DNA from: Oceanospirillales bacterium
GTDB lineage: Bacteria > Pseudomonadota > Gammaproteobacteria > Pseudomonadales > Balneatricaceae
DNA length: 64,000 bases
NCBI GenBank assembly: GCA_018223185.1
Contig: JAAEYW010000003.1
Coordinates: 214,074-278,073, forward strand
Direction of reading: 5' to 3'
The notes beneath the pieces were generated by a model, which was given only the letters and a program-made list of their open reading frames with translations, was not told where the DNA came from and searched no databases. The translations under genes and the position numbers were made by a program. Shown one piece after another: positions 46,748 through 62,183 of the stretch (position 1 is its first letter; each line of letters opens with the position of its first letter).

Positions 46748-47701
46748 GTGATCGATCGAGAAGCTGAAGATATCTATAAGACATTGTTGGAATCGACCAG
46801 AGCAATTCCCTGGAAGATTAACTGGGAGACAAAAGCTTTTGAATATATCGGTCCGCAGATTGAGGAACTGCTCGGCTGGAGTCAGGATAGCTGGGCCAGC
46901 GCACAGGACTGGATCGACCGGATTCACGAAGATGAGCGGCAAGCGTCAGCGCTCAGCTGCATTGAGTTGAGTGATAAAGGGGTCGACCATGAGATAGATT
47001 ACCGGGCGCTGACGGCCGATGGCAACTATGTCTGGGTGCGGGATGTGATCCACGTGATTCGTGAGAATGGCATGACCAAATCGCTGATTGGGTTTATTTT
47101 CGATATCTCTGAGCGTAAGGCGATGGAAGAGGCGTTGCATCAGGCCAATAAAAAATTAGAGCAACTCTCTTTTCAGGATGGCCTGACCGGGGTGGCTAAC
47201 TGGCGGCTTTATGATCAGACTCTGGGGCGAGAGTGGGCGCACGGGATGCGTAATAATTCTTCTCTGGCTCTGGTCGTTATCGATATCGACAACTTTAAAG
47301 AGTACAACGATCAGTTCGGTCATCTGCTTGGCGATGAAAGTCTCAAAAAAGTCGCCGGTGCACTACAGAAAGTGGTGACCCGCTCAACAGATCTTATCGC
47401 CCGTTATGGCGGGGAAGAGTTTGTTTTGCTACTGCCCGATACCGGCCGCGATGCTGCCCTGGATATCGCCGAACGGTGCCGCCGTGAAATACTTGATCTT
47501 GCTATAGACCATCCGGCCTCCAGCGCGGGAAAGGTGCTGACAATCAGTGCCGGTGTCTGCTGTATGGTACCTGTGGCGAAGCTTAATCGTAAATCACTGT
47601 TCGCCACCGCCGATAAAATGTTATATGAAGCGAAACTCAGCGGGCGTAATAAAGTGGTTTGTAGCTGGCCACAGGGGATGGAGAAGGTTAAGGGGCGGTG
47701 A
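46748..47701 (+). CDS. PAS-GGDEF diguanylate cyclase, copy 2
   Basis: 317 residues from a GTG at 46748, with AAGGAG 7 bases upstream; a farther ATG at 46718 is rejected because the paralogue starts at the equivalent GTG. It has the same PAS then GGDEF layout as copy 1, with RYGGEEF and I-site RSTD intact. The N-terminal PAS half is the most similar part, while the C-terminal tail diverges. Confidence 0.94.
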   Translation: MIDREAEDIYKTLLESTRAIPWKINWETKAFEYIGPQIEELLGWSQDSWASAQDWIDRIHEDERQASALSCIELSDKGVDHEIDYRALTADGNYVWVRDVIHVIRENGMTKSLIGFIFDISERKAMEEALHQANKKLEQLSFQDGLTGVANWRLYDQTLGREWAHGMRNNSSLALVVIDIDNFKEYNDQFGHLLGDESLKKVAGALQKVVTRSTDLIARYGGEEFVLLLPDTGRDAALDIAERCRREILDLAIDHPASSAGKVLTISAGVCCMVPVAKLNRKSLFATADKMLYEAKLSGRNKVVCSWPQGMEKVKGR

Positions 47702-48200
47702 GGGCTGTGTTCAGATTACTTGATTGCGGTTGGTGGCACGAACGTCGCTAGGCGACTTGCTCGTTGCTCGTTGTTCGTTGTTCGTGGCTCGAAAAAGCAA
47801 AAGCAAAAGCAAAATAAAAAGACTGCGAAATTGTTGAGGGATTGGTTGCTTGTGTGGGAGCGACGTCTCGTCGCGATGAAAACATGGGAGAGTCTCTGAA
47901 AAATATACGTTAAATATCAGGAAATCCTGAATCACCACCGGGCTGTTTGTTTTTTCGAGCCCCGGCACGTCGCCTGGCGACCTTCTTAGCACGGCTCTTA
48001 TACTTTGTGATAGGGCGAAAATTGTTTGGTTTACCTCCTGTACTATGATCCCCGTGAGTAACATTAAAGTCGTGTTTTTTGAGCCTCTAGTGCAATTTTA
48101 ATATCCCATCAGAGGGCTAGGATTAAGCCTCCAACTCATTACATAGCTGATGTTGATTCAGCGGTGTAACTCTGAAAATTAAAATAATCTGGAGTTTTTA
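47702..48200. repeat. Gene-free stretch with dispersed-repeat hairpins
   Basis: About 500 bases before the DUF1097 gene. It holds a GTCGC/GCGAC hairpin (near 47740), the words TTGCTCG and TTCGTGGCTCGAAA (47757-47792), a REP-like hairpin GCGACG/CGTCGC after TGTGGGA (47852-47876), and another degenerate hairpin near 47965. A 117-codon minus frame here is only repeat DNA. The last 140 bases must carry the promoter of the next gene. Confidence 0.7.
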
Positions 48201-48728
48201 ATGAAGAATCTTACGGCTTTATCGATCAGTATCAGCCTTCTGGGAGGATTGGCCACCTACCTGGCGATCGGCCCTCTCAATGGCATTTTTCTTATCTGGG
48301 CTGTGTTTGTGGCCTGGGGAGCTTTCTTCGCTGTCGGTGGCACGGCGGATGCGATGAAAAATACAATTGTCTGTGGCATTTTCGGTGTTTTTCTGGCCTG
48401 GAGTGCCGCACTCATTATTATTAATCTGCCGATGGCCGAGTCGCTGGGATTGCCATTGTGGGCCGGTATCGTGGTGGCTGCAACGGTACTGATTCTTTGT
48501 CTGGCGGCGAATATTCCAGCACTGGCAACGATTCCCGCAAGTGTCTTTGGCTATGCGCCGACCTTTGCTTATCTGTTGCAGACATCGGGTACACTCAGTA
48601 ATGACGTGTTGTTGTCGGCTAACCTGAGCAACCCGCTGTTACTGATTTCTGTTTCAATTATCGTAGGTACTTTATTCGGGTTCGCGTCCGGGCAGCTGGG
48701 TGCAAAACTGACAACGGCTGAGGCTTAA
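48201..48728 (+). CDS. DUF1097 membrane protein (YcdZ-like)
   Basis: 175 residues, almost wholly hydrophobic with about five to six membrane segments. The start LSISISLLGGLATYLAIGPLNG and WAVFVAWGAFFAVGGTADAM match DUF1097. Function unknown. A GGAG site lies 7-8 bases before the ATG and a strong terminator follows. Confidence 0.9.
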   Translation: MKNLTALSISISLLGGLATYLAIGPLNGIFLIWAVFVAWGAFFAVGGTADAMKNTIVCGIFGVFLAWSAALIIINLPMAESLGLPLWAGIVVAATVLILCLAANIPALATIPASVFGYAPTFAYLLQTSGTLSNDVLLSANLSNPLLLISVSIIVGTLFGFASGQLGAKLTTAEA

Positions 48729-48750
48729 TCACGATCAGCGTATCATTACC

Positions 48751-48777
48751 AAAGCCCGGCATCATTGCCGGGCTTTT
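48751..48777 (+). terminator. Rho-independent terminator after DUF1097 gene
   Basis: AAAGCCCGGC and GCCGGGCTTT pair perfectly around ATCATT-type loop bases, followed by more Ts. Confidence 0.92.
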
Positions 48778-48896
48778 TGCGTTGTTGAGCGATGAACAGA
48801 AACCGGTTTTTTAATACAGCAACCCCGATCAGGACCGCTCTCTTTCTGAATGCGAATATACTGCTGCACTGAAAAGGCTGGCTCGAAGGAGAGGAG

Positions 48897-49766
48897 ATGA
48901 AAGAACAAAGCGCAGTAAAGCAATATCCGCGCATTAACCGGGTCTGTGATTATATTCATCAGAATCTGGATGCTGAGCTGTCGATAGAACAGCTGAGCGG
49001 TATCGCTTCGTTGTCGAAATATCATTTTCATCGATTGTTTTCAGCGTTTACCGGCGTCAGCGTGATTCGCTTTATTCAGCTGATGCGCTTAAAACGAGCC
49101 TCATTCAGATTAGCATTTGAGCATGAGCTGCGGATTATCGATATCGCATATGAAGCAGGGTTTGACAGCCCTGAAGCATTTTCCCGCGCGTTTAAGCGAA
49201 CCTTTGGACAATCTCCCAGCGGATTCAGGGCATCACCTGAGTGGCCCGAATGGCACTCTAAATTCCAGTTTGATATGCCTGCAGGAGGCGTGCTGAAAAT
49301 GAATGTTGAGATTGTGGATTTTGTAGAAACACCGGTTGCACTGGTGGAACATAAAGGCCCCCGGGAGCAGGTGCTGGATGCGGCAGGGCGGTTTGTGGCC
49401 TGGCGCAAAGCGACCGGGCTATCTCCGGTTAAAACCAGCAAAACCTTTGGCGTCCCCTACAGTGACCCCAATACCACCGCGCCGGAGGATTTCCGCTTCG
49501 ATATTGGTGGCTCTTGTAGCGCAGAGGTTCCGGCGAACGGTTATGGCGTTAAGTCAGGGGTAATTCCGGGTGGTCGTTGTGCTGTGGTACGTCACCGCGG
49601 CAGTCACGATAATATCGATGAGAGTATCTATTATCTGTATCGTAGCTGGTTACCTGGTAGCGGTGAAGAGCTGCGGGACTTTCCCTGTTTTTTTCAGTAT
49701 CTGAACTTTATTCATGAAGTCGATGAATGTGACCTGTTAACCGATATATATCTGCCTCTGAAATAG
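48897..49766 (+). CDS. AraC-family regulator with GyrI-like effector domain
   Basis: 289 residues. The N-terminal ~105 residues hold the AraC double HTH (LSIEQLSGIASLSKYHFHRLF and IIDIAYEAGFDSPEAFSRAF). From about residue 125 a GyrI/SbmC-like ligand domain follows (VEIVDFVETPVALVEHKGP...). The HTH-first layout is like Rob. Such proteins often sense drugs or lipophilic compounds. Flanked by terminators on both sides. Confidence 0.93.
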   Translation: MKEQSAVKQYPRINRVCDYIHQNLDAELSIEQLSGIASLSKYHFHRLFSAFTGVSVIRFIQLMRLKRASFRLAFEHELRIIDIAYEAGFDSPEAFSRAFKRTFGQSPSGFRASPEWPEWHSKFQFDMPAGGVLKMNVEIVDFVETPVALVEHKGPREQVLDAAGRFVAWRKATGLSPVKTSKTFGVPYSDPNTTAPEDFRFDIGGSCSAEVPANGYGVKSGVIPGGRCAVVRHRGSHDNIDESIYYLYRSWLPGSGEELRDFPCFFQYLNFIHEVDECDLLTDIYLPLK

Positions 49767-49790
49767 ACGAATAGGAATGTATCAGTATAA

Positions 49791-49816
49791 AAAGCCCGGT
49801 TACAGAACCGGGCTTT
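49791..49816. terminator. Rho-independent terminator after AraC-GyrI gene
   Basis: AAAGCCCGGTT pairs with AACCGGGCTTT (11 bp) around ACAG. It lies 25 bases after the stop codon. Confidence 0.9.
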
Positions 49817-50091
49817 GATAAACGGGCCCTTCACATTAACGGAGATCACGACCCGTTCTACTACTGCCCGGACATCACCCCGGACAATAGCCCCTTCAAA
49901 CCGAGTCTTCTGCGTTGCCTATATAGCTCAGGCCTGTTGCAACGAGTTTTTTGAACTCACAAGATGTTCTGTCATTTTCCTGATTTATCACCGTGTGAAA
50001 ACAGTGCCGGCTATATGCTTTTTCTAGCCACTGGCAAGCGGCGAAGCCGCGTCTGGTAAGCCGCGTAGCGACGATCTGGCCACTGTTCTTA
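49817..50091. repeat. Gene-free stretch ending in reverse-oriented hairpin repeats
   Basis: No gene is seen. The right end (50023-50090) carries the dispersed repeat in reverse orientation: a stem GCGGC/GCCGC with GAA loop (TTC on the other strand) framed by CTAGCCACTGGCAA and GTCTGG, then a degenerate second copy. It abuts the stop of the CBS gene. Confidence 0.65.
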
Positions 50092-50679
50092 TCAAGTATC
50101 CCGTCCGGAAAACAGTACATCCACAACTTCACGAAAACTGGATGCCCGTTTGGAAATTTCCACCGGCACCTTCAGGCGGCGGGCGATATCACTGGAGGAG
50201 ATTACGCCACGAATTTCGTGATTCAGAGGGTTTACAACCAGCATATGGGGAGTGCCGGCATGCTGTAATGTGCGCAACAGGTCACCGATGCTGGCATGGG
50301 TTATCTCTGAAAGGGGGATCGCATGCAGTTTATCACGGGGCGTCATCACCTCTTTAATCGAGATATCGTGACGCTTGAGGCCCGCAGACGTTGCAATACT
50401 CATTGCTGCGCGGCTTTCAAGATCTGCAATGGTCAGCAGACCGCGAAAGTTTTCATCCTTATCAATCACCAGCACGGAACGCACATGTACCTTGCGCATC
50501 ATCTGCCGGGCTTCATCGATGGATACGTCCTGTTCCATCATCAGCGGCTGAACCTTTTCAAAGTCGGTCATCACTTCGATGGCCGGTGTATCCAGCGTGT
50601 ATTCGAGAAGTTCCTCGGGGCGGGCGATATGATCGGAGGCATCCAGAAGAATAGTTTTCAGTTCGTTATAGTTATTCAT
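50092..50679 (-). CDS. CBS-domain protein
   Basis: The ATG at 50679 (MNNYNELKTILLD) with AGGAT upstream gives 195 residues; the ATG at 50712 is less likely. Two CBS domains lie at about 45-105 and 110-180 (LVIDKDENFRGLLTIADLES; VMTPRDKLHAIPLSE; MLVVNPLNHEIRGVISSSDIARRL). It is soluble and stand-alone, probably an adenosine-nucleotide sensor. The C terminus reaches the repeat block. Confidence 0.93.
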   Translation of the reverse strand: MNNYNELKTILLDASDHIARPEELLEYTLDTPAIEVMTDFEKVQPLMMEQDVSIDEARQMMRKVHVRSVLVIDKDENFRGLLTIADLESRAAMSIATSAGLKRHDISIKEVMTPRDKLHAIPLSEITHASIGDLLRTLQHAGTPHMLVVNPLNHEIRGVISSSDIARRLKVPVEISKRASSFREVVDVLFSGRDT

Positions 50680-50736
50680 AGCATAATCCTGTCTTAGAAA
50701 AAGACCTGTCATCAGGTATATAAAAAATGCTGGATA

Positions 50737-51084
50737 TTAGCTAAAAGCAGGTGGCGCTCTGGTTAATGGGATTCTCCAGCGTGAACAGGAAGGGCGCGAC
50801 TGATCAGCATAGGTTATTTCAAAGCTGGAAGGTTGCAGGGCCAGACCGGCCGCGTTTGAAAGGATTAGATTGAAGGGTGGATTATCATTATCAACAGGAT
50901 CGATGAGAAGCTGTTGCTCTGAAACATTGCTTTCGTTAACCGGGAAGAGCTGTTTAGCCAGCGGCTCAAAGGGGAGTATAGGGGATTGCAGCGCCACCAG
51001 AACCAGTAAAAGCAGTAACCCAGGCCACCACTGATTCTGGCGGTATGTTGTTCCGGGTGATGTGATACTCACGGCATGCTTCAT
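50737..51084 (-). CDS. Hypothetical small membrane-anchored protein, 115 residues
   Basis: One hydrophobic segment (about 20-38, WWPGLLLLLVLVALQSPIL) followed by a polar domain with SCSRWRIPL near the end. No family recognised. It lies 57 bases upstream of the CBS gene in the same orientation. Its 5' side borders the large repeat region. Moderately likely to be real. Confidence 0.55.
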   Translation of the reverse strand: MKHAVSITSPGTTYRQNQWWPGLLLLLVLVALQSPILPFEPLAKQLFPVNESNVSEQQLLIDPVDNDNPPFNLILSNAAGLALQPSSFEITYADQSRPSCSRWRIPLTRAPPAFS

Positions 51085-51139
51085 AAATCTCAGTGTAGGC
51101 TAAAACGAAGGTTGGTGAAATCCCGGAACGAAAAAATTA

Positions 51140-51370
51140 TAGAGCGACGACTCGCACAAAGCGCGAGAGTGGCTAGAACGGAAACTTCGTTTCCTGCTAG
51201 TGGTTAGACGCGACTGCGTCGCTTGCTAGGAAAGAGCCGTTTTTCGAACGTCGCTGCGCGACTTGCTTGTTGTTCGTGGCTCGAAAGGGCAAGAGCCTGC
51301 AGAGTTGTTGAGGTGTTGGTTGGTTGTGTGGGAGCGGCGTCTCGCCGCGATGGGAAAACGTGAGCCGCAG
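51140..51370. repeat. Composite hairpin block, copy A
   Basis: Successive modules: CTCGC/GCGAG-type hairpin (51148-51168), a CTAGAACG-framed hairpin GGAAAC-TTC-GTTTCC ending TGCTAG (51173-51200), a TTAGACG-framed hairpin GCGAC-TGC-GTCGC ending TTGCTAG (51204-51229), a CGAACG-framed GTCGC-TGC-GCGAC hairpin, then a REP-like GCGGCG/CGCCGC hairpin after TGTGGGA (about 51327-51352). The same order recurs near 53.1 and 53.9 kb. Confidence 0.85.
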
Positions 51371-52253
51371 CTCGAACGTCGCTGCGCTACTTGCTCGTTG
51401 TTCGTCGCTCGAAAAGGCATAAGCCTGCGGAGTTGTTGAGGTGTTTGTTAGTTATGTGGGAGCGGCGTCTCGCCGCGATGGAAAACGGCAGCCGCAGCTC
51501 GAACGTCGCTGCGCTACTTGCTCGTTGTTCGTCGCTCGAAAAGGCATAAGCCTGCGGAGTTGTTGAGGTGTTTGTTAGTTATGTGGGAGCGGCGTCTCGC
51601 CGCGATGGAAAACGGCAGCCGCAGCTCGAACGTCGCTGCGCTACTTGCTCGTTGTTCGTCGCTCGAAAAGGCATAAGCCTGCGGAGTTGTTGAGGTGTTT
51701 GTTAGTTATGTGGGAGCGGCGTCTCGCCGCGATGGAAAACGGCAGCCGCAGCTCGAACGTCGCTGCGCTACTTGCTCGTTGTTCGTCGCTCGAAAAGGCA
51801 TAAGCCTGCGGAGTTGTTGAGGTGTTTGTTAGTTATGTGGGAGCGGCGTCTCGCCGCGATGGAAAACGGCAGCCGCAGCTCGAACGTCGCTGCGCTACTT
51901 GCTCGTTGTTCGTCGCTCGAAAAGGCATAAGCCTGCGGAGTTGTTGAGGTGTTTGTTAGTTATGTGGGAGCGGCGTCTCGCCGCGATGGAAAACGGCAGC
52001 CGCAGCTCGAACGTCGCTGCGCTACTTGCTCGTTGTTCGTCGCTCGAAAAGGCATAAGCCTGCGGAGTTGTTGAGGTGTTTGTTAGTTATGTGGGAGCGG
52101 CGTCTCGCCGCGATGGAAAACGGCAGCCGCAGCTCGAACGTCGCTGCGCTACTTGCTCGTTGTTCGTCGCTCGAAAAGGCATAAGCCTGCGGAGTTGTTG
52201 AGGTGTTTGTTAGTTATGTGGGAGCGGCGTCTCGCCGCGATGGAAAACGGCAG
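51371..52253. repeat. 127-bp tandem array, about seven nearly identical copies
   Basis: The word CTCGAACGTCGCTGCG recurs at 51371, 51498, 51625, 51752, 51879, 52006 and 52133, exactly 127 bases apart, and the units appear identical when read across. Each unit joins a CGAACG-framed hairpin, the words TTCGTCGCTCGAAAAGGC and GAGTTGTTGAGG, and a REP-like hairpin. Degenerate units flank the array. There are no unique spacers, so it is not CRISPR. The gap 51085-52419 has no gene. Confidence 0.95.
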
Positions 52254-52419
52254 AGTAGTTGCGCGTTGTTCGTCGCTCGAAAGGGCAAGAGCCTGCAGAA
52301 TTGTTGGGTGTTGATTGGTTGTGTGGGAGGCACGCCCTCGTGCCGATGATTTAATATAAGAGCCGTAGCTTGAACATCGCTGCGAGGCTAGGCAAAAGCC
52401 TGCCGCGTTGTTGTGGGAG
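52254..52419. repeat. Degenerate last unit of the tandem array
   Basis: A diverged unit follows the array; its REP-like hairpin has the changed stem GGCACG/CGTGCC after TGTGGGA (about 52322-52345), a compensatory change from GCGGCG/CGCCGC. It abuts the stop codon of the esterase gene. Confidence 0.7.
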
Positions 52420-53049
52420 TTAGATCACTTTGTCAATGAAGTCTGTCATCAGCGGATACATCGCCTGGGTGATGGTGTGTGGGGTGTCTGGCATCAGGTG
52501 GAGTTCACTGTCGATTCCAAGTTCTGATAATCGCTGGTGGCTCTGTTGTGATTCGAAAACACTGATAACCGGGTCGGCTTCGCCATGAATCAGGCATACC
52601 GGGGTAGCGCTGGCAGGTGTCTGTTGTGGCAGTTCGGCGAAGCGGCCGGCGATGCCGATAATACCGGCCACAGCATCACTGCTTTGTTTCAGCCATTCCA
52701 GTGACATAATCGTGCCCTGTGAAAAGCCCAGTAACACGACTTTGTCGAGCGACACTCCCGCTGATTCCGCCTGTTGCCGAATCAACTGATCAAATACAGG
52801 CATCACCTGCTGCACTCTGGCTGGCCGGTTCTCTTCCGTCACGCCGATCACATCAAACCACTGAAACCCCTGTTGAGAGATTGTAGAGGGAGAGAATCCG
52901 GCAGGAATACGGATCTCCAGATCAGGGTTACAGCGGTGCAGAATCTCAGCCAGCGGCCTCAGTGATTCAGGGCTGGCACCCACACCGTGAAACATCAATA
53001 TAAGGGCTTCAGGAGTGGAATTCTGAGAGGTGAACTGGATAGCGGGCAT
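52420..53049 (-). CDS. ypfH: Esterase YpfH-like (alpha/beta hydrolase)
   Basis: 209 residues. MFHGVGASPESLRPLAEIL (about 19-37), the nucleophile in LLGFSQGT (about 106-113), IHGEADPVISVFES and PDTPHTIT supply the triad. Length and motifs match E. coli YpfH and related carboxylesterases. It is distinct from the esterase at 29426. Its 3' end touches the tandem array and its 5' side another repeat block. Confidence 0.88.
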   Translation of the reverse strand: MPAIQFTSQNSTPEALILMFHGVGASPESLRPLAEILHRCNPDLEIRIPAGFSPSTISQQGFQWFDVIGVTEENRPARVQQVMPVFDQLIRQQAESAGVSLDKVVLLGFSQGTIMSLEWLKQSSDAVAGIIGIAGRFAELPQQTPASATPVCLIHGEADPVISVFESQQSHQRLSELGIDSELHLMPDTPHTITQAMYPLMTDFIDKVI

Positions 53050-53452
53050 CGAATGGCACTGAATAGATTAATGAACAGGGCCGGTATTCTTGCACTAAGG
53101 GAGGGGAGGGGCAAGTAGCTCAACGTCGCTGCGCAGGCTCGCAAAGAGCGCGAGAGCGCTAGTACTCGCAAAAAACGCGAGAGTGGCTAGAACGGAAACT
53201 TCGTTTCCTGCTAGTGGTTAGACGCGACTGCGTCGCTTGCTAGGGAAGAGGAAGAGCCGTTTCTCGAACGTCGCTTCGCGACTTGCTCGTTGTTCGTGGC
53301 TCGAAAAGGCACAAGCCTGTGGAGTTGTTGGATGTTTGTTCGTTGTGTGGAAGCGACGTCCCGTCGCGATGGACAAACGGCAGAGTGGCTTGAACATCGC
53401 TGTGCGACTTGTTCTTTGTTCGTCGCTCAAAAAAACAAAAGTAAGAGCTGAA
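53050..53452. repeat. Composite hairpin block, copy B
   Basis: No gene. Modules from about 53110: CGAACG-like GTCGC-TGC-GCAGG, two CTCGC-AAA..-GCGAG hairpins, the GGAAAC/GTTTCC and GCGAC/GTCGC hairpins in CTAG frames (53189-53244), a CGAACG-framed GTCGC-TTC-GCGAC hairpin (53266-53290), and a REP-like GCGACG/CGTCGC hairpin (about 53350-53370). The order equals copy A. A 70-codon minus frame here is repeat DNA. Confidence 0.85.
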
Positions 53453-53758
53453 TCATGCGGTTAGTTTTTCAATTCCTGCATATTTCTCTGCATCAACGCC
53501 TTCTTGTTCAGATTCCCAGACATCCAGTGCTGTTTGCATGTTCAGCCAGCTTTCCATGCTTGTGCCGGTGGCTTTGCCCAGACGGGTTGCCATATCTCTG
53601 GAACAGGGGATATGACCATTGATGAACAGTGACAGGTGTTTACGAGAAACCCCAAGTTTACGGGCGGCATCACTGATGCTGGTTTTCAGTGGAACCAACA
53701 CATCATTCAGGAACACCTGACCCGGATGGGTGGGTTTACGATTGCGTACTCTACTCAT
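53453..53758 (-). CDS. higA: HigA-type antitoxin (orphan)
   Basis: The ATG at 53758 (MSRVRNRKPTHPGQVF) gives 101 residues. KPTHPGQVFLNDVL is the classic HigA/VapI start, followed by an HTH (SISDAARKLGVSRKHLSLFINGH) and a C-terminal tail. The upstream toxin gene survives only as a 3' remnant, so the antitoxin is an orphan. The longer open frame reaching 53959 is the remnant read in the wrong frame. Confidence 0.92.
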   Translation of the reverse strand: MSRVRNRKPTHPGQVFLNDVLVPLKTSISDAARKLGVSRKHLSLFINGHIPCSRDMATRLGKATGTSMESWLNMQTALDVWESEQEGVDAEKYAGIEKLTA

Positions 53759-53769
53759 TCCTTTGCGCC

Positions 53770-53895
53770 TTAATGATATTGTTGGTAGTCGACGATGACG
53801 GCGTTTGTGCCTTCGAGTTTGAATGTTAGCCGCCATGCCCCGGAAACATTGATCGCCATTACGAATCCCTGTAACCAATCTGGTAACAAGTGTAG
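53770..53895 (-). pseudogene. higB: HigB toxin remnant (C-terminal end only)
   Basis: In the frame ending with TAA at 53770-53772, the minus strand reads MAINVSGAWRLTFKLEG then TNAVIVDYQQYH, the standard C terminus of RelE/HigB toxins. Upstream the similarity fades (HLLPDWLQGFV) and a stop occurs near 53890, just before the hairpin block. The first half of the toxin is gone, so it cannot be functional. Confidence 0.85.
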
Positions 53896-54467
53896 GTGGT
53901 GTTTTTAATGTCTGCAACCTAAAGCTCGCAGAGAGCGTGAGAGTGGCTAGTACTCGCAAAAAACGCGAGAGTGGCTAGAACGGAAACTTCGTTTCCTGCT
54001 AGTGGTTAGACGCGACTGCGTCGCTTGCTAGGGAAGAGCCGTTGCTCGTTGTTCGTCGCTCGAAAGGGCAAGAGCCTGACGAGTTGTTGGATGTTTGTTG
54101 GTTATGTGGGAGCGACGTCTCGTCGCGATTGAAAAAGAAAGAGTAGCGGGGACGGTCGCTTCGCGGGCTCGCAAAGGGCGCGAGAGTGGCTAGACGTCAC
54201 TGCGTGACTTGCTAGTGATTAGACGCGACTGCGTCGCTTGCCAGAAGAGCCGTAGCTCGTTGTTCGTGGTTTGAAAAAGCTTAAAGCCAGCTCGTTTTGC
54301 AGGGCTGGGATGGTTTTGTTGGCTTTCGGGGTTGAGCGGAGTGCTGTCTGGGAGTACATTCAGGTAATAACTTTTAGTTCGTTACCAGATTGCGACAGCA
54401 ATCATGCAGTTGGTCATGAAGACCCGGGGATCGGAGACGCAGCGCGTCTCACTGAAATGGATGTAAC
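53896..54467. repeat. Composite hairpin block, copy C, and partial copy D
   Basis: Copy C (53925-54135) repeats the module order of A and B: CTCGC hairpins, GGAAAC/GTTTCC, GCGAC/GTCGC, a TTCG...CGAA module and REP-like GCGACG/CGTCGC. Partial copy D (54160-54260) has GTCAC-TGC-GTGAC (54196-54208), another covarying stem, then GCGAC/GTCGC. Further right, GAGACGC/GCGTCTC (54434-54450) forms a 7-bp hairpin with AGC loop. I see no gene. Confidence 0.8.
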
Positions 54468-55094
54468 ATGGATGCTTCTTTTAAGAGCCGTTGTTCGTGG
54501 CTCGTTGTTTGTTGCTCGAAAAAACTGACACAGCAGGTTACTGCATATTCTACGCTTCAGTGCCTGATAGCCATTCTGACAGTGTCCCCGTTTATATCTA
54601 TAAGCGTACAAGCTAATCCTCTGATCGATACCTACGTAAAGTTTAACCAGAATCTGACCTACGCCATTATGAAGCCGATGCGCGATAGCATGGGGGTGGC
54701 CCTTGAGTCTGTTAACGTCGAGTACCGCAATCAACCCGTGAGCTTCCAGTATCAGATGTGGCGGCTGCGCCCCAACAGCGTGTGTCAGCCACAGAAATAC
54801 AGCCTGTTAAAGTATTCATCCTGTACTGAAGCGGCCAGCCAGTTCTTCCGGGAAACCTGCCAGACACTACAGCAGAACCCCACCGACTTACTGCTCTACC
54901 CAAACTACAAACGACTCTACTGTAACGCCGCCGCCAGCTATCAGCCCGTTATCGCCAAAGTCCGCCGCTCAGAACCGATGGATGAACGCACCCAACAGCG
55001 CCAGCAGTGCTCAATGCTGACCATAAAAGCCGCCCGCACCCGTAAAACGATAGACATCTACGAACGCGATAAGGCATGTGGAGGAGACACATAA
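54468..55094 (+). CDS. Hypothetical secreted protein
   Basis: 208 residues as read from the ATG at 54468, which lies at the edge of repeat DNA; the true start is uncertain. A hydrophobic stretch (about 30-48, CLIAILTVSPFISISV) ending QANP looks like a late signal peptide. The mature part has six to seven cysteines (VCQPQ, SCTEA, ETCQTL, YCNAA, QCSML, KACGG), suggesting disulfides. Its stop lies 1-2 bases before the next ATG, so it is coupled to the DUF2726 gene. Confidence 0.7.
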   Translation: MDASFKSRCSWLVVCCSKKLTQQVTAYSTLQCLIAILTVSPFISISVQANPLIDTYVKFNQNLTYAIMKPMRDSMGVALESVNVEYRNQPVSFQYQMWRLRPNSVCQPQKYSLLKYSSCTEAASQFFRETCQTLQQNPTDLLLYPNYKRLYCNAAASYQPVIAKVRRSEPMDERTQQRQQCSMLTIKAARTRKTIDIYERDKACGGDT

Positions 55095-55095
55095 T

Positions 55096-55671
55096 ATGGA
55101 TGCTTTCATCTTCCCGCTGCTACTGCTTATCGCGGTGGTTATTCTTGCCGGTTTTCTTAAAAATCTGAAAGGCTCCGGCACATCCACTAAAGAAGACGGC
55201 TCGTCTTTAGGTTATCGGAAAAAAGGCCCGTTATTCACCCCTGCGGAACGTTCATTCTACGGTGTACTTCTACAAGCGATCGACACAGACAAATACCAGG
55301 TGTTCGGCAAGGTCCGCGTCGCGGACCTGCTGGAACCCCAGCCCAGCCGCAACCGTAGCCAGTGGCAGAAAGCCTTTAACGGCATCAGCGCCAAACACTT
55401 CGACTTCGTCATCTGCAAAACCGACGACCTGACCCCCGTCGCCGCCATCGAACTCGACGACAAAACCCACAACCAGAAACACCGCCAAAAACGCGACGAA
55501 CTCCTGAAAAACATCTGCCAACAATCACAACTCCAGCTCCTGAGAGTACCCGCACAATACGCCTATAAAACAGAAGTGCTGAAAATGATGCTGGCGAAAG
55601 AGTTGGAAGAAAAAACGGGTGCAGAGCCGTCTGAAATAGAGCTTGGTGATTTGAGAAGGGGAATTGGCTGA
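55096..55671 (+). CDS. DUF2726 membrane-anchored nuclease-like protein
   Basis: The ATG at 55096 follows GGAGGAG and gives 191 residues. One N-terminal membrane segment (about 3-22) is followed by the DUF2726 domain: FTPAERSFYGVLLQAI, then FDFVICKTDDLTPVAAIELDDKTH, whose D and E/D residues resemble a PD-(D/E)XK nuclease core, then LLRVPAQYAY. Biochemical activity is not established for this family. It overlaps none but is coupled to the secreted protein gene. Confidence 0.85.
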   Translation: MDAFIFPLLLLIAVVILAGFLKNLKGSGTSTKEDGSSLGYRKKGPLFTPAERSFYGVLLQAIDTDKYQVFGKVRVADLLEPQPSRNRSQWQKAFNGISAKHFDFVICKTDDLTPVAAIELDDKTHNQKHRQKRDELLKNICQQSQLQLLRVPAQYAYKTEVLKMMLAKELEEKTGAEPSEIELGDLRRGIG

Positions 55672-55731
55672 AAAGCTTCTACTCGTATCTCCATTATTCG
55701 TAATAAATTAAACTGTGCTATGGAAATCAGT

Positions 55732-57570
55732 ATGAAATTAAGTCAAGTACTATCCCAAATCAATCAAGTTGAACGATCAAAATTTGTTAGTTGCTTAGAT
55801 AAAGTACGCACTGAGGCCATCAAAACAGATTCTGATCTAGAGCACCAGTTGACGACAGAAGGGCAGCTTAAAAGCGCATCGGGTAGTGAAATTACTGAAT
55901 TATTCAAAGTTGTAGCGAATCATTTTTGTGATTATATCCGCGAGCAAATAGCTTTAGGTGGCCCGCAGATTTCTCTTCTAATAAATATTCTTTCTCGTGA
56001 TGGTAATAGTATTGCTCGTCAGTCATGGATTGAATCATTATATGTTGAAGAGCATGGTCGTCTTAGTGAACTTGCAATCGATATTTCAAAAGAGATTGAA
56101 GAAGCAGAAACTGCTGACGGATATAATCGAGGACAGCGATTTTCTATATATCGAGATTGTTTTAAAATCGCTTATGAAAATGATCTTCGCTTAAATCGCG
56201 AAGCTAAAGTCACGGATGATGAGCGCACAATCTTGAATGTCTTATCTGATCGTCTGGGAATGTCTAAAGATGAGGCTTTTGCTATTGAACACATTCAGGT
56301 TCCTGTGCCAATCAGTAATATTCAAGAAGCATTAAGTAGCCTTAGGGAACTTGGAGTTATTTTTATAGATAAGCGGAAGTCTGAAGTATTGGTTGCCGAT
56401 GAAATTGTTGAATTGCTTCGAGTAATTCAAAATAAAGTAATTGCTGATAAATATACAACTCGAGTACTTCGTTCACTTTCAGATGCTGAGTTATCTGTAA
56501 TTTTACGTAAGCATGGTGAAAAGTCGAGAGGGACTTCTCGGCAGGATAAAATAAAGTGGATTTCTCACTCAGGTGTTTCTATTAAAAATATCTTGGCTAG
56601 AGATATTTTTACTGATGAAAAAATAAGCGAAAGAAAAGATCGAATAAAGATTTTAATTGAAGATTTAAATCTATCAGTTGATAAGTTGGGCGCTAAACTG
56701 GATGAAAGAATTAATTTGCTAATCTCTGCATTTAAGAATAACTCTGATGCTGAATTTAACTTATTAAGTGCGAGTGGTTTTAGTGAATTAATAACTGCAT
56801 TGAAAGAAACGAAGCCAAGCGCTCTTGAACGTATTCGTGAGGAGTTTGAAATTGAGTCAACGGAGTCTCTAGACCCTGAACGTCTTCGTTCTTTAGGTGT
56901 ATCTCCTTTAGATATTTTATATCTTTACTCGAATGATGAGGTCAGAGCTATACGCGATAGTATGGGCCTTTCTAAACGAGGAAATGCCCGTGTAGTTATT
57001 TTGGAAAGCTATGCTAGCGCAAATGATAAATTGATTGAACACTATGAATTATTGGCTTCTCGTGATCTTGCTGGCTTATCATTAGTTAATATTGATATAA
57101 AAGAGGCGGAGTTGGGTCTTAAGTTTGAAGAAGTTACGAGAACAATGTTTGAAATTCTGGGCTTAGTTGTTGATGAGGAATTACGAAAGCAAATTAATAC
57201 TGCCAAAGATAGGGCTGATATTATTGTATCCCTTGGCGGTGATGATGTAATTGTGTGCGAAGTTAAGTCACATAAGAATGGTGATTTTTCTAAGTATTCT
57301 ACAACGTCTCGGCAAGTGAAAGCGTATGTGAACCGTTGTGAATCAAATGGCAAGAGAGTCGCTCAAGTTTTGATTGTAGCGCCCAGTTTTTCTGATGACT
57401 TCGTGTTAGCTGCCGAGTTGGATACGGATGTCAATATTTCACTGTTAGAGGCGAAAGGGTTAAAGGCAATTGTTACCGCCTATAAAGCAAAAAGGCATCC
57501 AAATTTCTCGGAAAAATTACTCACTAAGGGTGGATTACTCAAAGCTGATTTAATAGCTAAAACTATTTAA
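55732..57570 (+). CDS. AT-rich large protein with C-terminal PD-(D/E)XK-like domain
   Basis: 612 residues from ATG 55732 (another ATG at 55720 adds four). The first ~450 residues are helical with no recognised domain. The C-terminal ~150 show a nuclease-like core: E466 in LKFEEV, DRADIIV (493-499), VCEVKS with E510 and K512, and RQVKAYV, the pattern of Mrr-like restriction enzymes. Codon use is clearly more AT-rich than in neighbours, so transfer is likely. Possible defence gene; no partner methylase is present. Confidence 0.75.
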   Translation: MKLSQVLSQINQVERSKFVSCLDKVRTEAIKTDSDLEHQLTTEGQLKSASGSEITELFKVVANHFCDYIREQIALGGPQISLLINILSRDGNSIARQSWIESLYVEEHGRLSELAIDISKEIEEAETADGYNRGQRFSIYRDCFKIAYENDLRLNREAKVTDDERTILNVLSDRLGMSKDEAFAIEHIQVPVPISNIQEALSSLRELGVIFIDKRKSEVLVADEIVELLRVIQNKVIADKYTTRVLRSLSDAELSVILRKHGEKSRGTSRQDKIKWISHSGVSIKNILARDIFTDEKISERKDRIKILIEDLNLSVDKLGAKLDERINLLISAFKNNSDAEFNLLSASGFSELITALKETKPSALERIREEFEIESTESLDPERLRSLGVSPLDILYLYSNDEVRAIRDSMGLSKRGNARVVILESYASANDKLIEHYELLASRDLAGLSLVNIDIKEAELGLKFEEVTRTMFEILGLVVDEELRKQINTAKDRADIIVSLGGDDVIVCEVKSHKNGDFSKYSTTSRQVKAYVNRCESNGKRVAQVLIVAPSFSDDFVLAAELDTDVNISLLEAKGLKAIVTAYKAKRHPNFSEKLLTKGGLLKADLIAKTI

Positions 57571-57585
57571 ATTAAAGGATAATCC

Positions 57586-57625
57586 CGTTTCAATCGCCGC
57601 GAGGGCGCGCCTCCCACAGAATTGA
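57586..57625 (-). repeat. REP-like hairpin, reverse orientation
   Basis: Read on the minus strand, TGTGGGAGGC is followed by GCGCCCTCGCGGCGAT, a member of the REP-like element with an altered stem. Confidence 0.55.
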
Positions 57626-57650
57626 CATCTATCGCAGTTACCCATGACCA

Positions 57651-57680
57651 AAAAAGCCCAGACAAGTGTCTGGGCTTTTT
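57651..57680. terminator. Bidirectional terminator between the nuclease-like gene and valS
   Basis: A 14-bp perfect stem (57651-57664 with 57667-57680) with a 2-base loop has A-runs and T-runs at the ends. It can serve both converging genes. Confidence 0.93.
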
Positions 57681-57688
57681 AACGTTTT

Positions 57689-57755
57689 TTCTAGCTACTA
57701 GCAAGCGGCGGAGCCGCGTCTAGCGAGGAGCGAAGCGACGTTCTAGCCACTGTTG
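57689..57755 (-). repeat. CTAG-framed hairpins downstream of valS
   Basis: Reverse-oriented copies: stem GCGGC/GCCGC with GGA loop (TCC on the other strand) between CTAGCAA and GTCTAG, then a degenerate CGAAGCG copy framed by CTAG. They lie between the terminator and the valS stop. Confidence 0.75.
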
Positions 57756-60626
57756 CTAAAGCGCCTCTATCTTCGAGAACTGCTCACTCAATTGATCCAG
57801 CGATGCCTTGTACTCCGCCAATTTTGAGCGTTCTTTTAAGACGACCTCCTCCGGCGCATTAGCGACAAACTTGTCATTATTCAGCTTGCCTTCCAGACGT
57901 CCGGCTTCTTTCTGCAGCTTGTCCATCTCTTTCTTCAGACGGGCCAGTTCGGCGTCTTTGTCGATCAGGCCGGCCATGGGCACCAGTACCTGCATATCGC
58001 CGACCAGCTGGACTGCGGACATCGGTGCTTCTTCACCGGCTTCTAGCCAGGTGATTGAGCTCAGAGAGGCCAGTTTAGCCAGGAAGGAGCGGTTGGCGTC
58101 CAGACGGGTTTTATCCTCGGCGGTGCCTTTCTGAATCAGGATATCCAGCCCTTTCGCCGGGGAGATGCCCATCTCGCCGCGGATGTTACGCACACCGGTG
58201 ATGATGCCTTTCAGCCAGTTGATATCGGCTTCGGCGGCGGCATCATGTTTATCTTGATTGGCAACCGGGAAGGGTTGCAGCATGATGGTGTCGCCCTCGA
58301 CACCGGCCAGCTCTTTGATTGACTGCCAGATCTCTTCGGTGATGTACGGCATGATCGGGTGAGTGAGTCGCAGAATCACTTCCAGTGCGCGGACCAGAGT
58401 GCGACGGGTGCCGCGCTTGGCTTCGGCGGAGGCGTTCTCATCCCACAGCACCGGCTTGGACAGTTCCAGATACCAGCCGCAGTATTCGTTCCAGATGAAG
58501 TCATACAGCGTCTGAGAAGCCAGGTCGAAACGGTATTCGTCCAGATGTTTTGTCACTTCGGCTTCGACTTTCTGCAGTTCACTGGCGATCCAGCGGTCGG
58601 CCAGCGACAGCGTCACTTCACCACCGGACTCGCCAGACGTGCCTTGTCCACAGTCTTCGCCTTCGGTGTTCATCTGCACGTAGCGGGCGGCGTTCCAGAT
58701 TTTGTTACAGAAGTTACGGTAACCTTCCAGTCGTTTCACATCCCAGTTGATATCACGGCCGGTTGAGGCCAGTGCTGCCAGGGTGAAGCGCATGGCGTCG
58801 GTGCCGTGGGCGGCGATCCCTTCAGGGAACTGCTTTTCGGTCCGCTTGGCGATCTTCTCTGCCAGTTGTGGCTGCATCATGTTGCCGGTGCGTTTTTCCA
58901 GCAGTTCTGGCAGGCTGATACCGTCGATCATATCCAGCGGGTCGAGTACGTTACCCTTAGACTTGGACATCTTGTCGCCGTTCTCGTCACGGATCAGACC
59001 GGTCACGTAAACGGTTTTGAACGGTACCTGCGGCTTGCCCTCATCATCTTTGATCAGGTGCATGGTCATCATCATCATCCGGGCAACCCAGAAGAAGATG
59101 ATATCGAAACCGGTCACCAGCACATCAGTGGGGTGGAAGGTTTGCAGGCGTTCGGTGTTTTCCGGCCAGCCCAGGGTGCCAAAGGTCCACAGGCCAGAGC
59201 TGAACCAGGTGTCCAGTACGTCATCGTCCTGACGCAGCTCGGTTTGCAGGTCCAGGCCATATTTTTCCCGCGCGGCATCGGCATCCTTGGCAACGTAGAC
59301 ATTGCCCTGATTGTCGTAGAACGCCGGAATCCGGTGGCCCCACCACAGCTGACGGGAGATACACCAGTCCTGAATGTCACGCATCCAGGCGAAGAACATG
59401 TTTTCATACTGCTTGGGTACGAACTTGATGTCGCCGTTCTCAACCGCTTCAATGGCCGGGCCGGAGAGGGTTTTGGCATCGGCAAACCACTGGTCGGTGA
59501 GCATCGGCTCGATTACCACACCGCCACGGTCACCGTAGGGGATGGTCATATCGTTTTCTTCGATCTTCACCAGCAGGCCGGCTGCTTCCATATCCGCTAC
59601 AATCGCCTTACGGGCGGCGAAGCGCTCCATGCCGCGATAGGCTTCCGGCAGGGTTTTATCAATCTCGTGGTTTTCGCTGCCATCGGTGTTGAAGGTTTCC
59701 GCTTCATTGCGGATATCACCGTTGAGTGTGAGGATGTTAATCATCGGCAGCTGGCAACGCTTGCCCACTTCATTATCGTTGAAGTCGTGAGCCGGGGTGA
59801 TCTTCACGCACCCGGAGCCTTTCTCCATATCGGCGTGTTCATCGCCGACAATCGGGATGCGACGGCCAACCAGTGGCAGGATGATCTCTTTGCCGATCAG
59901 GTCTTTATAGCGGTCATCGTCCGGGTTAACCGCCACACCGGTATCACCCAGCATTGTTTCCGGACGGGTGGTGCCGACCACCAGATAGTCTTCACCGGCC
60001 GCGGTTTTAACGCCATCGGCCAGAGGATAACGCAGATACCACATCTTGCCTTTAACGTCGCGGTTTTCCACTTCAAGATCGGAGATCGCAGTGTGCAGTT
60101 TAGGGTCCCAGTTTACCAGGCGCTTACCACGGTAGATCAGGCCTTCATCATAGAGACGGATGAACACTTCCTGCACGGCGTTGTAGAAGCCGGAATCCAT
60201 GGTGAAGCGTTCGGTCGGCCAGTCAACCGAGTCGCCCAGGCGGCGCATCTGGTTGGTGATCATGCCACCGGATTCTGCTTTCCACTCCCAGATCTTTTCG
60301 ATAAAGGCATCGCGGCCCAGATCGTGACGGGTTTTCTGCTCTTCGGCGGCCAGCTTGCGTTCAACCACCATCTGGGTGGCGATACCTGCATGGTCGGTAC
60401 CGACCTGCCACAGGGTGTTTTTACCCTTCATCCGCTGATAGCGGATCAGAGCATCCATGATAGTGTGCTGGAAAGCATGACCCATATGCAGGCTGCCGGT
60501 GACGTTCGGCGGCGGAATCATAATGCTGTAGGCATCGCCTTTACCGGATGGGGCAAAGTAACCTTTTTCTTCCCAGGTTTTGTACCAGGATTTCTCGATC
60601 TCGTGCGGCTGGTAGGTGGTATCCAT
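57756..60626 (-). CDS. valS: Valyl-tRNA synthetase
   Basis: 956 residues, full length class I synthetase. The HIGH box is HMGH (47-50) in [14 protein letters not shown], and KMSKS lies near residues 551-556 (DKMSKSKGN). The CP1 editing domain and a C-terminal coiled coil ([20 protein letters not shown]) are present. It charges tRNA-Val. In E. coli it follows pepA and holC; here about 1.1 kb of repeats and a small gene separate it from holC. Confidence 0.98.
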
Positions 60627-60744
60627 TAATAGACCGTGCTCTCAAAGCTAGAATTAGTGCAAAAAAATAGTCGCATATTATAACGCCCGCAGGGCGGTTA
60701 AGCGAGGGGTAAAAGCCGTGGCGGGGTGCCCGAACCTAATGCCT

Positions 60745-61012
60745 GGCGCTATTAAGTAGCCAGAACGGAAACTTCGTTTCCTGCTAGGCGTTAGACGCGA
60801 CTGCGTCGCTTGCTAGATGTAAGAGCAGTCGCTAGATGTGCTTCGCACTTGCTAGTGGTTAGAACGGAGCCTGCGGCTCCTGCTAGAAAAAGCGCAGATC
60901 AAGAGCATGGTTCTGTAGTATCGACATTCTTCTTTTGCTCTTTGTTTTTTCTAGCGAGCGACGCAGTCGCGTCTAACCACTAGCAAGTCGCGAAGCGACG
61001 TCTAGCGACTTA
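60745..61012. repeat. CTAG-framed hairpin cluster upstream of valS
   Basis: Hairpins with the constant frame and different stems: GGAAAC-TTC-GTTTCC (60766-60780), GCGAC-TGC-GTCGC (about 60797-60809), GTGC-TTC-GCAC (60838-60848), GGAGCC-TGC-GGCTCC (60866-60880), then reverse-oriented GCGAC/GTCGC and GTCGC/GCGAC copies (60955-61010). The valS promoter must lie within or beside this cluster. No gene in 60627-61092. Confidence 0.85.
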
Positions 61013-61092
61013 TTCCCGAATGGTATCACCATTGTGAACTGCGTTTTTTTTGAACTAGACTATTTTTCAGAAACGACAAAAAGGATTTTGTT

Positions 61093-61434
61093 ATGAGTTA
61101 TGAAGATCTTGATGCATGGAAGCGTGCTTGCCGATTGAGTTGTGAGGTGTATACAGTGCTGTCCCGATGCCGGGATTTTGGTTTCAGGGATCAGATTACC
61201 CGCAGTAGTTTGTCGATACCCAGTAATATCGCGGAAGGGTTTGAGCGTGGTTCTTTAAAAGAGAAGCGGCAATTTCTCTATTATGCCAAGGGTTCGCTGG
61301 CTGAACTGAAAACTCAGGTCTATATCGGTCAGAGGATTGGTTACATTCACACCGAGCGAGGCTGTGACTGGCGAAAAGAGTTGGATGAGATTCAAAAAAT
61401 GCTGGCAGCATTAATTAAATCGACGGAATCCTGA
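61093..61434 (+). CDS. Four-helix-bundle protein (23S rRNA IVP type)
   Basis: 113 residues. YEDLDAWKRACRLSCEVY, ITRSSLSIPSNIAEGFERGS and RQFLYYAKGSLAELKTQV are the diagnostic blocks of the four-helix-bundle family, related to the proteins encoded in 23S rRNA intervening sequences and to Avd. No reverse transcriptase or rRNA is nearby. The gene lies alone between two hairpin clusters in the holC-valS gap. Confidence 0.92.
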   Translation: MSYEDLDAWKRACRLSCEVYTVLSRCRDFGFRDQITRSSLSIPSNIAEGFERGSLKEKRQFLYYAKGSLAELKTQVYIGQRIGYIHTERGCDWRKELDEIQKMLAALIKSTES

Positions 61435-61760
61435 AGGCTTTTGTTTTATCTAACTATTAGCAGGAAGCGAAGTTGTGACGAGCAGTCGCTAGACGTGCTT
61501 CGCACTTGCTAGTGGTTAGATGCGACTGCGTCGCTTGCCAGGAAAAGCTAAGACGCAAAAGCGTTTGGTAGTTTGGCCGGGTGTGGGTTTTATTTTTTTC
61601 TGGCTGCTCTCGCGTTTTTTGCGAGTACCTGCAATGTCTGGCCTCTGCTCGTTAAATCGCTGCAGGATGCAGCTCCTACAAGACGTAGTTCGGGCGATTG
61701 CGAGATTTTTGCTTTTTCTAGCGACGAGCAGAAAACGAAGTTTCCGTTCTAGCTACTGCT
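61435..61760. repeat. CTAG-framed hairpin cluster between the bundle gene and holC
   Basis: GTGC-TTC-GCAC (about 61495-61505), GCGAC/GTCGC (61520-61535), CTCGC...GCGAG (61608-61626) and reverse GGAAAC/GTTTTC-type (61722-61750) hairpins. The last overlaps the holC stop codon, whose final residues SSS are read from repeat DNA. Confidence 0.75.
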
Positions 61761-62183
61761 CTTACGCATATCATGCATCTTCGGGGTAATGCCGTGCTCT
61801 TTGTAGAGGGCGTAGTTTTTGCGGGTGGCGGCGAGGATGTCCGGTTGCTGAATAACGATTTCGAGAATCCGGTCGAATTTCAGGGTTTCCTCTGAAGCGT
61901 CCAGCGCCAGGTTGATGTAGACATCCCGGTGCTGAGGAAGCTGATCTCCCCAGCCGATCTGCACCGGGGCATCGGGTTTGCTATTGAGCAGTCCGTGGGG
62001 GATGAAAGCATCGGCGCGATAATCCCACAGCAGCTGATCCAGACGTTCCGCCTCGCCAGCACCGGCGACGTGAATGTAAGCGTTGAGGCCGTGCCCCAGC
62101 ACTTTATCCGCCAGCCGGCAGAGGAAAGCGGTTCGGCTGTCCGGGTCGGCATCGGGCAGAACATAAAAATCAGCTTGGCTCAT
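61749..62183 (-). CDS. holC: DNA polymerase III chi subunit HolC
   Basis: The ATG at 62183 (MSQADFYVLPD) gives 144 residues, as expected for HolC; a farther ATG adds 19 unusual residues. Family landmarks: FLCRLADKVLGHGLNAYIHV, LDQLLWDYRADAFIPHGL and the strand DVYINLALDASEE. Chi links the clamp loader to SSB. The C terminus KMHDMRKSSS has been altered by the adjacent repeat. It follows pepA after 135 bases. Confidence 0.95.
   Translation of the reverse strand: MSQADFYVLPDADPDSRTAFLCRLADKVLGHGLNAYIHVAGAGEAERLDQLLWDYRADAFIPHGLLNSKPDAPVQIGWGDQLPQHRDVYINLALDASEETLKFDRILEIVIQQPDILAATRKNYALYKEHGITPKMHDMRKSSS

Follow-up and report, generated by a model that had tools for sequence, protein, structure and literature searches.

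Elhai et al. reportedly described in 2008 the Nostoc repeats SDR4, SDR5 and SDR6 as hairpins of ∼21–27 nucleotides (nt) that carry compensatory changes and are embedded in tandem heptamers, and that study is not known to name a partner gene for these repeats. Here we analyse a 64,000-nt stretch of an Oceanospirillales bacterium (assembly GCA_018223185.1, contig JAAEYW010000003.1, forward-strand positions 214,074–278,073; hereafter the window, position 1 being its first letter), in which framed mini-hairpins surround a gene of the PF05635 family ('23S rRNA-intervening sequence protein', hereafter IVP) between valS and holC. The genome is 4.61 Mb long and is placed in the genus Amphritea by inference from hairpin-bearing relatives of that genus. 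Like the Nostoc SDRs, the Amphritea units are small compensating hairpins inside tandem heptamers; they differ in that their host belongs to the Gammaproteobacteria and not to the Cyanobacteria. The Amphritea hairpins are a gammaproteobacterial counterpart of the cyanobacterial SDRs.

Several other described systems share features with this locus. Precise insertion has been described for SDR5 (PMC4390886). Heptamers have been reported in Xanthomonas (GGGAATC, dispersed, mostly intergenic and often in inverted pairs; PMC4692102), in Nostoc (GGGGA(C/T)T, with a role not known; PMC4692102) and in Beggiatoaceae (TAACTGA; PMC4679880). These heptamers are dispersed and mostly intergenic, as in Amphritea, and the available parts of the two papers name no gene partner; the terms 'four helix' and 'S23' do not occur in PMC4692102, nor do 'four helix bundle' and 'S23' in PMC4679880. 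The excess of heptamers in bacteria has been ascribed by default to polymerase slippage, no other cause being apparent (PMC4692102). The S23p/IVP proteins have a solved structure and a function that is not known, and a Xanthomonas relative is described as a homopentameric ring; in Coxiella, the intervening sequence (IVS) of the 23S rRNA is preceded by heptameric repeats that vary in number, and it is excised by RNase III (PMC4990558). The window locus resembles such an IVS in having a PF05635-type open reading frame (ORF) bounded by inverted repeats, but it lies between valS and holC, not in an rRNA gene, and its repeats are dispersed through the genome. The PF05635 family is also homologous to Avd (PMC10053308), and the window protein is likewise a four-helix-bundle protein; unlike in diversity-generating retroelements, no reverse transcriptase adjoins its gene or is correlated with it in the genus. 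Finally, families of repetitive extragenic palindromes (REPs) carry a GTAG or CGTC tag and in most of them head-head dimers predominate, with a stem of 8–9 bp and a loop of 4–5 nt in the CGTC REPs (PMC3733652). The Amphritea units share with both families that they are short, intergenic, non-autonomous palindromes mostly downstream of genes. They differ in lacking the GTAG tag, in their TNC triloops, in their head-to-tail order and in having no adjacent RAYT gene, and from the CGTC REPs also in stem length, which is 4–7 bp in all 534 framed hairpins collected.

A strict scan of the window finds 19 framed mini-hairpins at 50031–61541, all within the range 47702–61760 to which the first-pass annotation had assigned them; the same scan finds none in 20 Markov-1 shuffles of the window. 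A unit consists of [CT]TAG, A(A)C or A[A/C]C, a stem, a TNC loop, the complementary stem and (T)NGCTAG, is ∼20–26 nt long and has a stem of 4 to 7 bp. In an alternative spelling TCG replaces TAG on both sides, and the frames found are CTAG, TTAG, CTCG and CCAG. The annotation had listed the stems GGAAAC, GCGAC, GTCGC, GTCAC, GTGC, GGAGCC and GCGGC, loops of TTC, TGC or TCC, and both orientations; all of these are present in the window. The recurring module order it described is seen as GGAAAC followed by GCGAC, four times, with starts 31 nt apart. Across the Amphritea stretches, neighbouring units at most 120 nt apart stand head to tail in 141 of 158 pairs. The hairpins are inserts among degenerate heptamers of the form TNGYTMG: the commonest spacing between neighbours is 29 nt (50 of 158 pairs) and the next 22 nt (25 of 158), which correspond to a single unit, either alone or together with an additional heptamer. 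Heptamer runs free of hairpins also exist, namely (CTAGTGG)n at three Amphritea loci (L042, L070 and L073).

The PF05635 gene lies at 61093–61434 on the plus strand and encodes a 113-residue protein that also matches TIGR02436. Its profile scores are 114.2 bits against a cut-off of 33.8 for PF05635 (E = 4.1e-33) and E = 1.6e-32 for TIGR02436; the match to the Avd model (24.9 bits, E = 1.9e-5) stays below the cut-off of 80. The structure match is chain A of 2gsc (E = 1.3e-16), an entry that holds five such chains. Hairpin arrays flank the gene at 60764–61001 and 61493–61751. On the left, an outer array on the plus strand (60764–60886) contains GGAAAC (60764–60787), GCGAC (60795–60816), GTGC (60836–60855) and GGAGCC (60863–60886), and an inner array of opposite orientation (60951–61001, minus strand) contains GCGAC (60951–60972) and GTCGC (60980–61001). 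On the right, the inner array (61493–61541, plus strand) contains GTGC (61493–61512) and GCGAC (61520–61541), and the outer unit (61725–61751, minus strand) is GGAAAC/GTTTTC with one G–T pair, its TAG supplying the stop codon of holC (61749–62240). Two nested inverted repeats enclose the gene, an outer one of 41 nt (60755–60795/61717–61757) and an inner one of 50 nt (60939–60988/61504–61553), each 88% identical, and 60755–61757 (neither strand being assigned) is the cassette that we propose. The valS–holC interval of six relatives (G001, G002, G003, G006, G010 and G012) contains no IVP gene; in G014 a contig ends inside this interval and PF05635 is found only elsewhere in the genome.

Period 7 recurs beside PF05635 genes well outside Amphritea. 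The family is present in 77 of 369 genomes of the window's class, from which 29 loci were taken, 22 of them full length; 16 of the 23 plasmid records with an IVP protein match were also used (five Nostoc, two Calothrix and one each of Anabaena, Aulosira, Stanieria, Pseudanabaena, Geminocystis, Picosynechococcus, Riemerella, Azospirillum and Gemmatirosa). Tandem heptamers beside the class genes are unrelated in sequence between loci. Under a strict test (at least 13 of 14 matches at lag 7), the 22 class loci have an array upstream in 13 cases, downstream in 10 and on both sides in seven. The same test gives none at lags 4–6 and 8–11 at these loci, none at lag 7 and one at lag 10 in 44 far ends, and 0 of 19 and 0 of 19 for the two sides of Amphritea Y1 loci. 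At a threshold of at least 12 of 14, 30 of the 38 loci (19 of 22 class, 11 of 16 plasmid) have a lag-7 array on one or both sides within 160 nt, compared with three loci at lag 8, one at lag 11 and none at lags 4–6, 9, 10 and 12; windows 740–900 nt away give three upstream and three downstream. Loci that pass with a 7-mer come from the Pseudomonadota, the Cyanobacteriota and, in a single case, the Bacteroidota. In one 4.0-Mb genome of the set (G172), its heptamer triple has 13 matches when three mismatches are allowed, every one of them at the IVP gene, and in another (G158) a similar heptamer is dispersed genome-wide.

The two flanks of a gene mostly carry their repeats in inverted order. Inverted words of at least 10 nt are shared between flanks at 27 of the 38 loci, compared with 70 of 1406 swapped pairs and three of 38 far pairs, and direct words at seven of 38. 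Whole-flank RNA duplex energies averaged −86.9 for near, −78.0 for far and −67.0 for other-locus partners, with the own partner best at 11 of 38 loci; since base composition dominates these energies they are uninformative, and shared-word counts were used instead.

Insertion of gene and repeats together can be read from two plasmids of Nostoc sp. ATCC 53789. On pNsp_a, the gene and its heptamers separate two genes, of 441 and 288 bp, whose spacing on pNsp_c is 3 bp. On pNsp_c, the gene and its heptamers separate the 288-bp gene from the one after it, and the spacing of that pair on pNsp_a is likewise 3 bp. Both insertions are directly behind a stop codon, and the pNsp_a insert has TTCTA at each end.

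Within Amphritea, PF05635 is present in 11 of 17 genomes, compared with none of 14 control genomes. It is found in all 10 Amphritea with at least nine hairpins and in one of the seven with at most one (G014, at another locus); these hairpin counts are lower bounds, as 150 candidates were scored per genome. Heptamer-triple matches, overlaps counted, number 47 in the window's own genome and 158 in G011, and there are none in seven relatives: nine of the 11 gene-bearing genomes have 11–158, the other two have one and none, and all six gene-free genomes have none. The reversed triple pattern is not an independent control for these counts, since its hits fall on these very runs (117 in G011, 29 in G009 and 0–14 in the others). 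On a valS tree of 16 of the 17 Amphritea (G013 left out), the gene at the window's locus and the hairpins each change twice, in agreement with each other in the two independent pairs; when any PF05635 gene is counted, the agreement with the hairpins is in one of two, and Y1/RAYT has one change. By eye, 12 of 14 Amphritea IVP loci are flanked on either side by the local repeat type, another runs into a contig end and the last is single-sided; at the second Amphritea locus the heptamer is a different one, CTCGGAC. Inverted words of at least 13 nt are shared by six of 14 near flanks and by none of the 14 far ends.

Stem pairing is conserved while the letters change, as the first-pass annotation had argued from the window. 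To avoid preselecting hairpins, units were selected on the frame AGAC-N13-TTGCYMG alone. This pattern has 57 matches in the genome, compared with 11 for the reversed control; 40 of the 57 have five of five Watson–Crick pairs, seven have four, and 10 have at most two, about the number expected by chance. There are nine different perfect stems among them, and 46 of the 57 loops are T-N-C. Counting distinct T-N-C cores, 13 of 20 are perfectly paired, compared with a mean of 2.3 and a maximum of 7 in 2000 shuffles of the 3′ arm. In the other Amphritea, 132 of 153 frame matches are perfect in 80 of 100 stretches, which had been fetched with a pattern that set the outer and inner pairs and the loop ends and left three middle pairs free; a table in which 100% of units are paired is so by construction, because its sequences were preselected as hairpins. 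A covariance model searched genome-wide, the check that had been proposed, does find the family, with 131 matches at E ≤ 1 among 150 candidates scored, training copies included. The 534 framed hairpins, a set that includes heptamer runs and chance hairpins, have TNC loops in 388 cases.

Orthologous hairpins in different Amphritea stretches are identical in 45 cases and differ in the loop only in 17, by a wobble pair in four, by broken pairs in seven and by insertions or deletions in 21. In ten, both partners of at least one base pair have changed, and in seven of these at two or three pairs simultaneously; some of these may be misaligned, because seven of the 10 come from alignments less than 78% identical. 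As far as this comparison goes, stem variety comes mostly from whole-unit exchange and not from chained compensated point changes. The GCGAC unit has a second possible folding register, and DNA folding of three units consistently favours neither strand. The complementary strand may form the extra-stable d(GNA) triloop, an idea suggested by the near-invariant C-TNC-G and not by energies; it plays no part in the explanation below. One broken hairpin, GTCGC-TTC-GCTCC (57720–57746; L023), recurs at several loci and in G009, and a rule that all pairs are kept leaves it unexplained. A second hairpin class with TAAA or CAAG loops and longer stems occurs in the same heptamer frame at L183 (G005), L187 (G007) and L047.

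Single units are present or absent with exact boundaries between species. A clean junction was obtained in 37 of 434 empty-site queries, many being confounded by neighbouring units, and the two cleanest are used here. Locus L114 carries a 26-nt unit that is absent from L134, where 240 nt of flank align at 88% with no gap at the junction, and L023 carries a 22-nt unit absent from L078 (169 of 240 nt aligned, at 94%). At the valS–holC site, G010 and G014 continue after TAAGTAGCTAG; in G008, G011 and G015, a unit follows immediately on these letters. Since the heptamers flanking a hairpin are direct repeats, loss by slippage between them is likely.

The units also have a preferred position. In a survey of 140 hairpin clusters from 80 stretches and the window, with genes taken from ORF calls, two clusters are inside an ORF of 120 or more amino acids and 40 have no neighbour in the stretch. 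A same-strand gene lies upstream in 75 of 98 clusters, and 47 of 98 start at most 60 nt past its stop, compared with six in the mirrored place; the units thus sit in the mRNA sense just past stop codons. The minus-strand pair near valS (57698–57746), which consists of the broken GTCGC/GCTCC unit and then GCGGC at 57698–57719, lies ∼10 nt past the valS stop, ahead of a terminator-like hairpin. In the searches made, the hairpins are confined to Amphritea: no match at E ≤ 0.001 was obtained in 20 genomes of other genera, and the matching stretches listed from a named collection (at least 100) are all from Amphritea. Viral contigs gave no exact match to the hairpin pattern, and no phage record matches the IVP protein; a protein scan of viral contigs, sensitive to close relatives only, gave 10 matching stretches, of which none was confirmed.

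We propose that the valS–holC insert is a mobile cassette with inverted heptamer-array ends and the PF05635 gene as its sole gene, and that the dispersed hairpin pieces are its non-autonomous derivatives. We put the probability of this reading, together with the mechanism set out below, at roughly 0.55. The association of gene and heptamers is strong; that the protein acts on the repeats is what we infer from it. In the proposed mechanism, an IVP ring, pentameric as in the solved relative, would bind RNA or single-stranded DNA of the heptamer arrays, with about one repeat per subunit, and in such a model the period would therefore be fixed and the sequence free. The bound protein would promote copying or spread of the cassette and its units. 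New units would insert behind a heptamer end (CTAG), and existing ones would be lost when the heptamers on their two sides slip against each other; hairpins would persist because folding either makes the strand a substrate or protects it, and stems would turn over by exchange of whole units. The results suggest that a heptamer-flanked PF05635 gene is a widespread and hitherto unrecognised kind of mobile element. A more general version, which we offer tentatively, holds that PF05635 proteins may be the trans-acting core of a widespread, unrecognised class of mobile elements with fixed-period repeat ends (7, sometimes 8), read by the ring at one repeat per subunit, which would hold the period and let the sequence drift, and that cyanobacterial heptamers and SDRs, the Xanthomonas GGGAATC, rRNA IVSs and the Amphritea hairpins may all be its products.

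The link between gene and heptamers would be the new and surprising part, and as an association it is well supported. We found no publication that links PF05635 to heptamers beyond one IVS, in a search that left most subscription journals uncovered; the available parts of PMC8700078, PMC10910872, PMC11270868 and PMC5524665 mention the protein and not heptamers. Two orphans, the S23p/IVP proteins and the bacterial heptamer excess, would explain each other if the protein handles the repeats. In that case some of the smallest known mobile repeats would also gain a named partner, and the Amphritea units would provide a natural set of covarying 20–26-nt hairpins that one sister species has and another lacks.

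Several observations weigh against the proposed cassette and its protein partner. Eight of the 38 loci outside Amphritea (L215, L228, L235, L240, L244, L245, L247 and L253) are below the 7-mer threshold, among them the single alphaproteobacterial and gemmatimonad loci; two of the misses, Gemmatirosa and Picosynechococcus, carry 8-mers. Inverted words of at least 10 nt fail at 11 of the 38 loci. In Amphritea such words are found in eight of 14 near flanks and also in six of 14 far ends, and direct matches between flanks are often longer than inverted ones. The window itself has no strict lag-7 excess (one array at lag 7, compared with one, one, three and one at lags 6, 8, 9 and 11), because its heptamers are degenerate and interrupted by hairpins. 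The phyletic match of gene and hairpins rests on two independent changes, which puts significance out of reach; G007 has a weak copy of the gene and 18 hairpins with no heptamer triple, and G014 has the gene at another locus with one hairpin and one triple. The Nostoc empty sites are silent on whether the protein did the inserting, and one Coxiella S23p is reported as probably not expressed (PMC4990558). Nor does a reverse transcriptase go with the system: PF00078 is found in four of 17 Amphritea, three of them over the cut-off, and in several hairpin-rich genomes it is not found.

Ordinary slippage would make the heptamers and hairpins microsatellite-like tracts that change in length and are copied by replication slippage and recombination, in which PF05635 cassettes merely land. 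Pure heptamer runs without hairpins such as (CTAGTGG)n would fit this, as would the one-unit difference between L023 and L078 as a loss between flanking heptamers, and heptamers are reported to be common in bacterial genomes, with slippage mentioned (PMC4692102 and PMC4679880). The period-7 signal, however, is found at the flanks of one gene family and is mostly gone 740 nt away, the triple of G172 is found at its IVP gene alone, and the Nostoc insertions bring their repeats along, which makes slippage by itself unlikely. Selection on RNA elements in 3′ untranslated regions that stabilize or end mRNAs, with covariation reflecting RNA function, would account for the sense orientation past stops and for the placement between stop and terminator at valS. 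It fares worse with the lability of units at orthologous sites (four relatives have no match), with the A-tract and not U-tract that follows the units in the copies read, with the swapping of stems as whole units and with the two orientations inside the valS–holC interval. We regard it as improbable.

Movement by a transposase is a lead that the first-pass annotation had raised by proposing to look for a RAYT/TnpREP gene. Such a gene exists: L009 (G000:C17:46847–47161) is the only Y1/RAYT gene of the genome and is embedded in GTAGGAGCCCC..GGGGCGAT REP arrays, forming a clean REPtron, and GTAGGAG..GAT REPs are found at this RAYT and at four of 25 Y1 loci of relatives. Small size, intergenic location, pairs, high copy number and the Y1 genes in 12 of 17 Amphritea would suit REP- or REPIN-like elements moved by a RAYT or another Y1 transposase. 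In a scan for 3-nt loops and stems of at least 5 bp, however, framed hairpins are near one of 26 Y1 loci (L153), and G007 has its 18 hairpins and no Y1 match. The tag and head-to-tail order are unlike those of the GTAG and CGTC families, and stem and loop size unlike those of CGTC REPs. This lead did not hold: RAYT was rejected as the partner, the PF05635 gene lying in the arrays instead, and a Y1-driven origin seems very improbable. Spread through an RNA copy made by a trans-acting reverse transcriptase, with the IVP taking the part that Avd has in diversity-generating retroelements, would draw on the homology of PF05635 and Avd (PMC10053308 and the profile match) and on the sense orientation relative to transcripts. 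A match to reverse transcriptase is absent from G004, G005, G007, G011, G013, G015 and G016; such an enzyme was rejected as a genus-wide partner for want of correlation, and we judge this route to be about as improbable as selected RNA elements.

Returning to the window, the concern that recent block duplication explains all copies is justified in part: a 112-nt block in four copies, 65–100% alike, and a 127-bp tandem block account for some of the copy number, not for all of it. The 127-bp block (51226–52260, plus strand, seven members) consists of a TCG-type hairpin, a run of TTGCTCG TTGTTCG and a GTGGGAG..GAT REP, and its hairpin is mostly the broken form GTCGC/GCTAC in the seven tandem copies. 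The strict scan also places units on the plus strand at 51177–51229 (GGAAAC at 51177–51200 and GCGAC at 51208–51229), 53191–53289 (GGAAAC at 53191–53214, GCGAC at 53222–53243 and a TCG-type GTCGC at 53267–53289), 53979–54031 (GGAAAC at 53979–54002 and GCGAC at 54010–54031) and 54194–54244 (GTCAC at 54194–54215 and GCGAC at 54223–54244), and a lone CCAG-framed GCGGC unit on the minus strand at 50031–50052. At 47738–47791 (plus strand) a TCG-type hairpin, GTCGC TAG GCGAC, is followed by five tandem heptamers (47756–47791; TTGCTCG TTGCTCG TTGTTCG TTGTTCG TGGCTCG), the single lag-7 array of the window at threshold. A separate RAYT-style REP family (GTGGGAGCGGCGTCTCGCCGCGAT) occurs in the same intergenic regions, at 47860–47874, 51334–52238, 53353–53367, 54112–54126 and 57590–57620.

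Rfam matches in the window at gathering thresholds are three tRNAs and two RtT RNAs, with no rRNA match at these thresholds; the two RtT matches lie behind a tRNA cluster at 6073–6379, within a 161-nt direct repeat. Adjacent ORFs at 44839–45801 and 46718–47701 are 73–76% identical over 300-nt stretches and represent a tandem gene duplication. Elsewhere, contig 1 of G158 has, among the arrays listed, five on the minus strand in its first half and 12 on the plus strand in its second, as if oriented by replication, and the 1.5-Mb genome G361 has 11 weak PF05635 matches, seven of them equal in score. In three cyanobacterial plasmids (L246, L248 and L253), IVP genes lie between CRISPR genes: between cas6 and cas4 in Anabaena 90 and Pseudanabaena, and between cas10 and a cmr3-family gene in Picosynechococcus.

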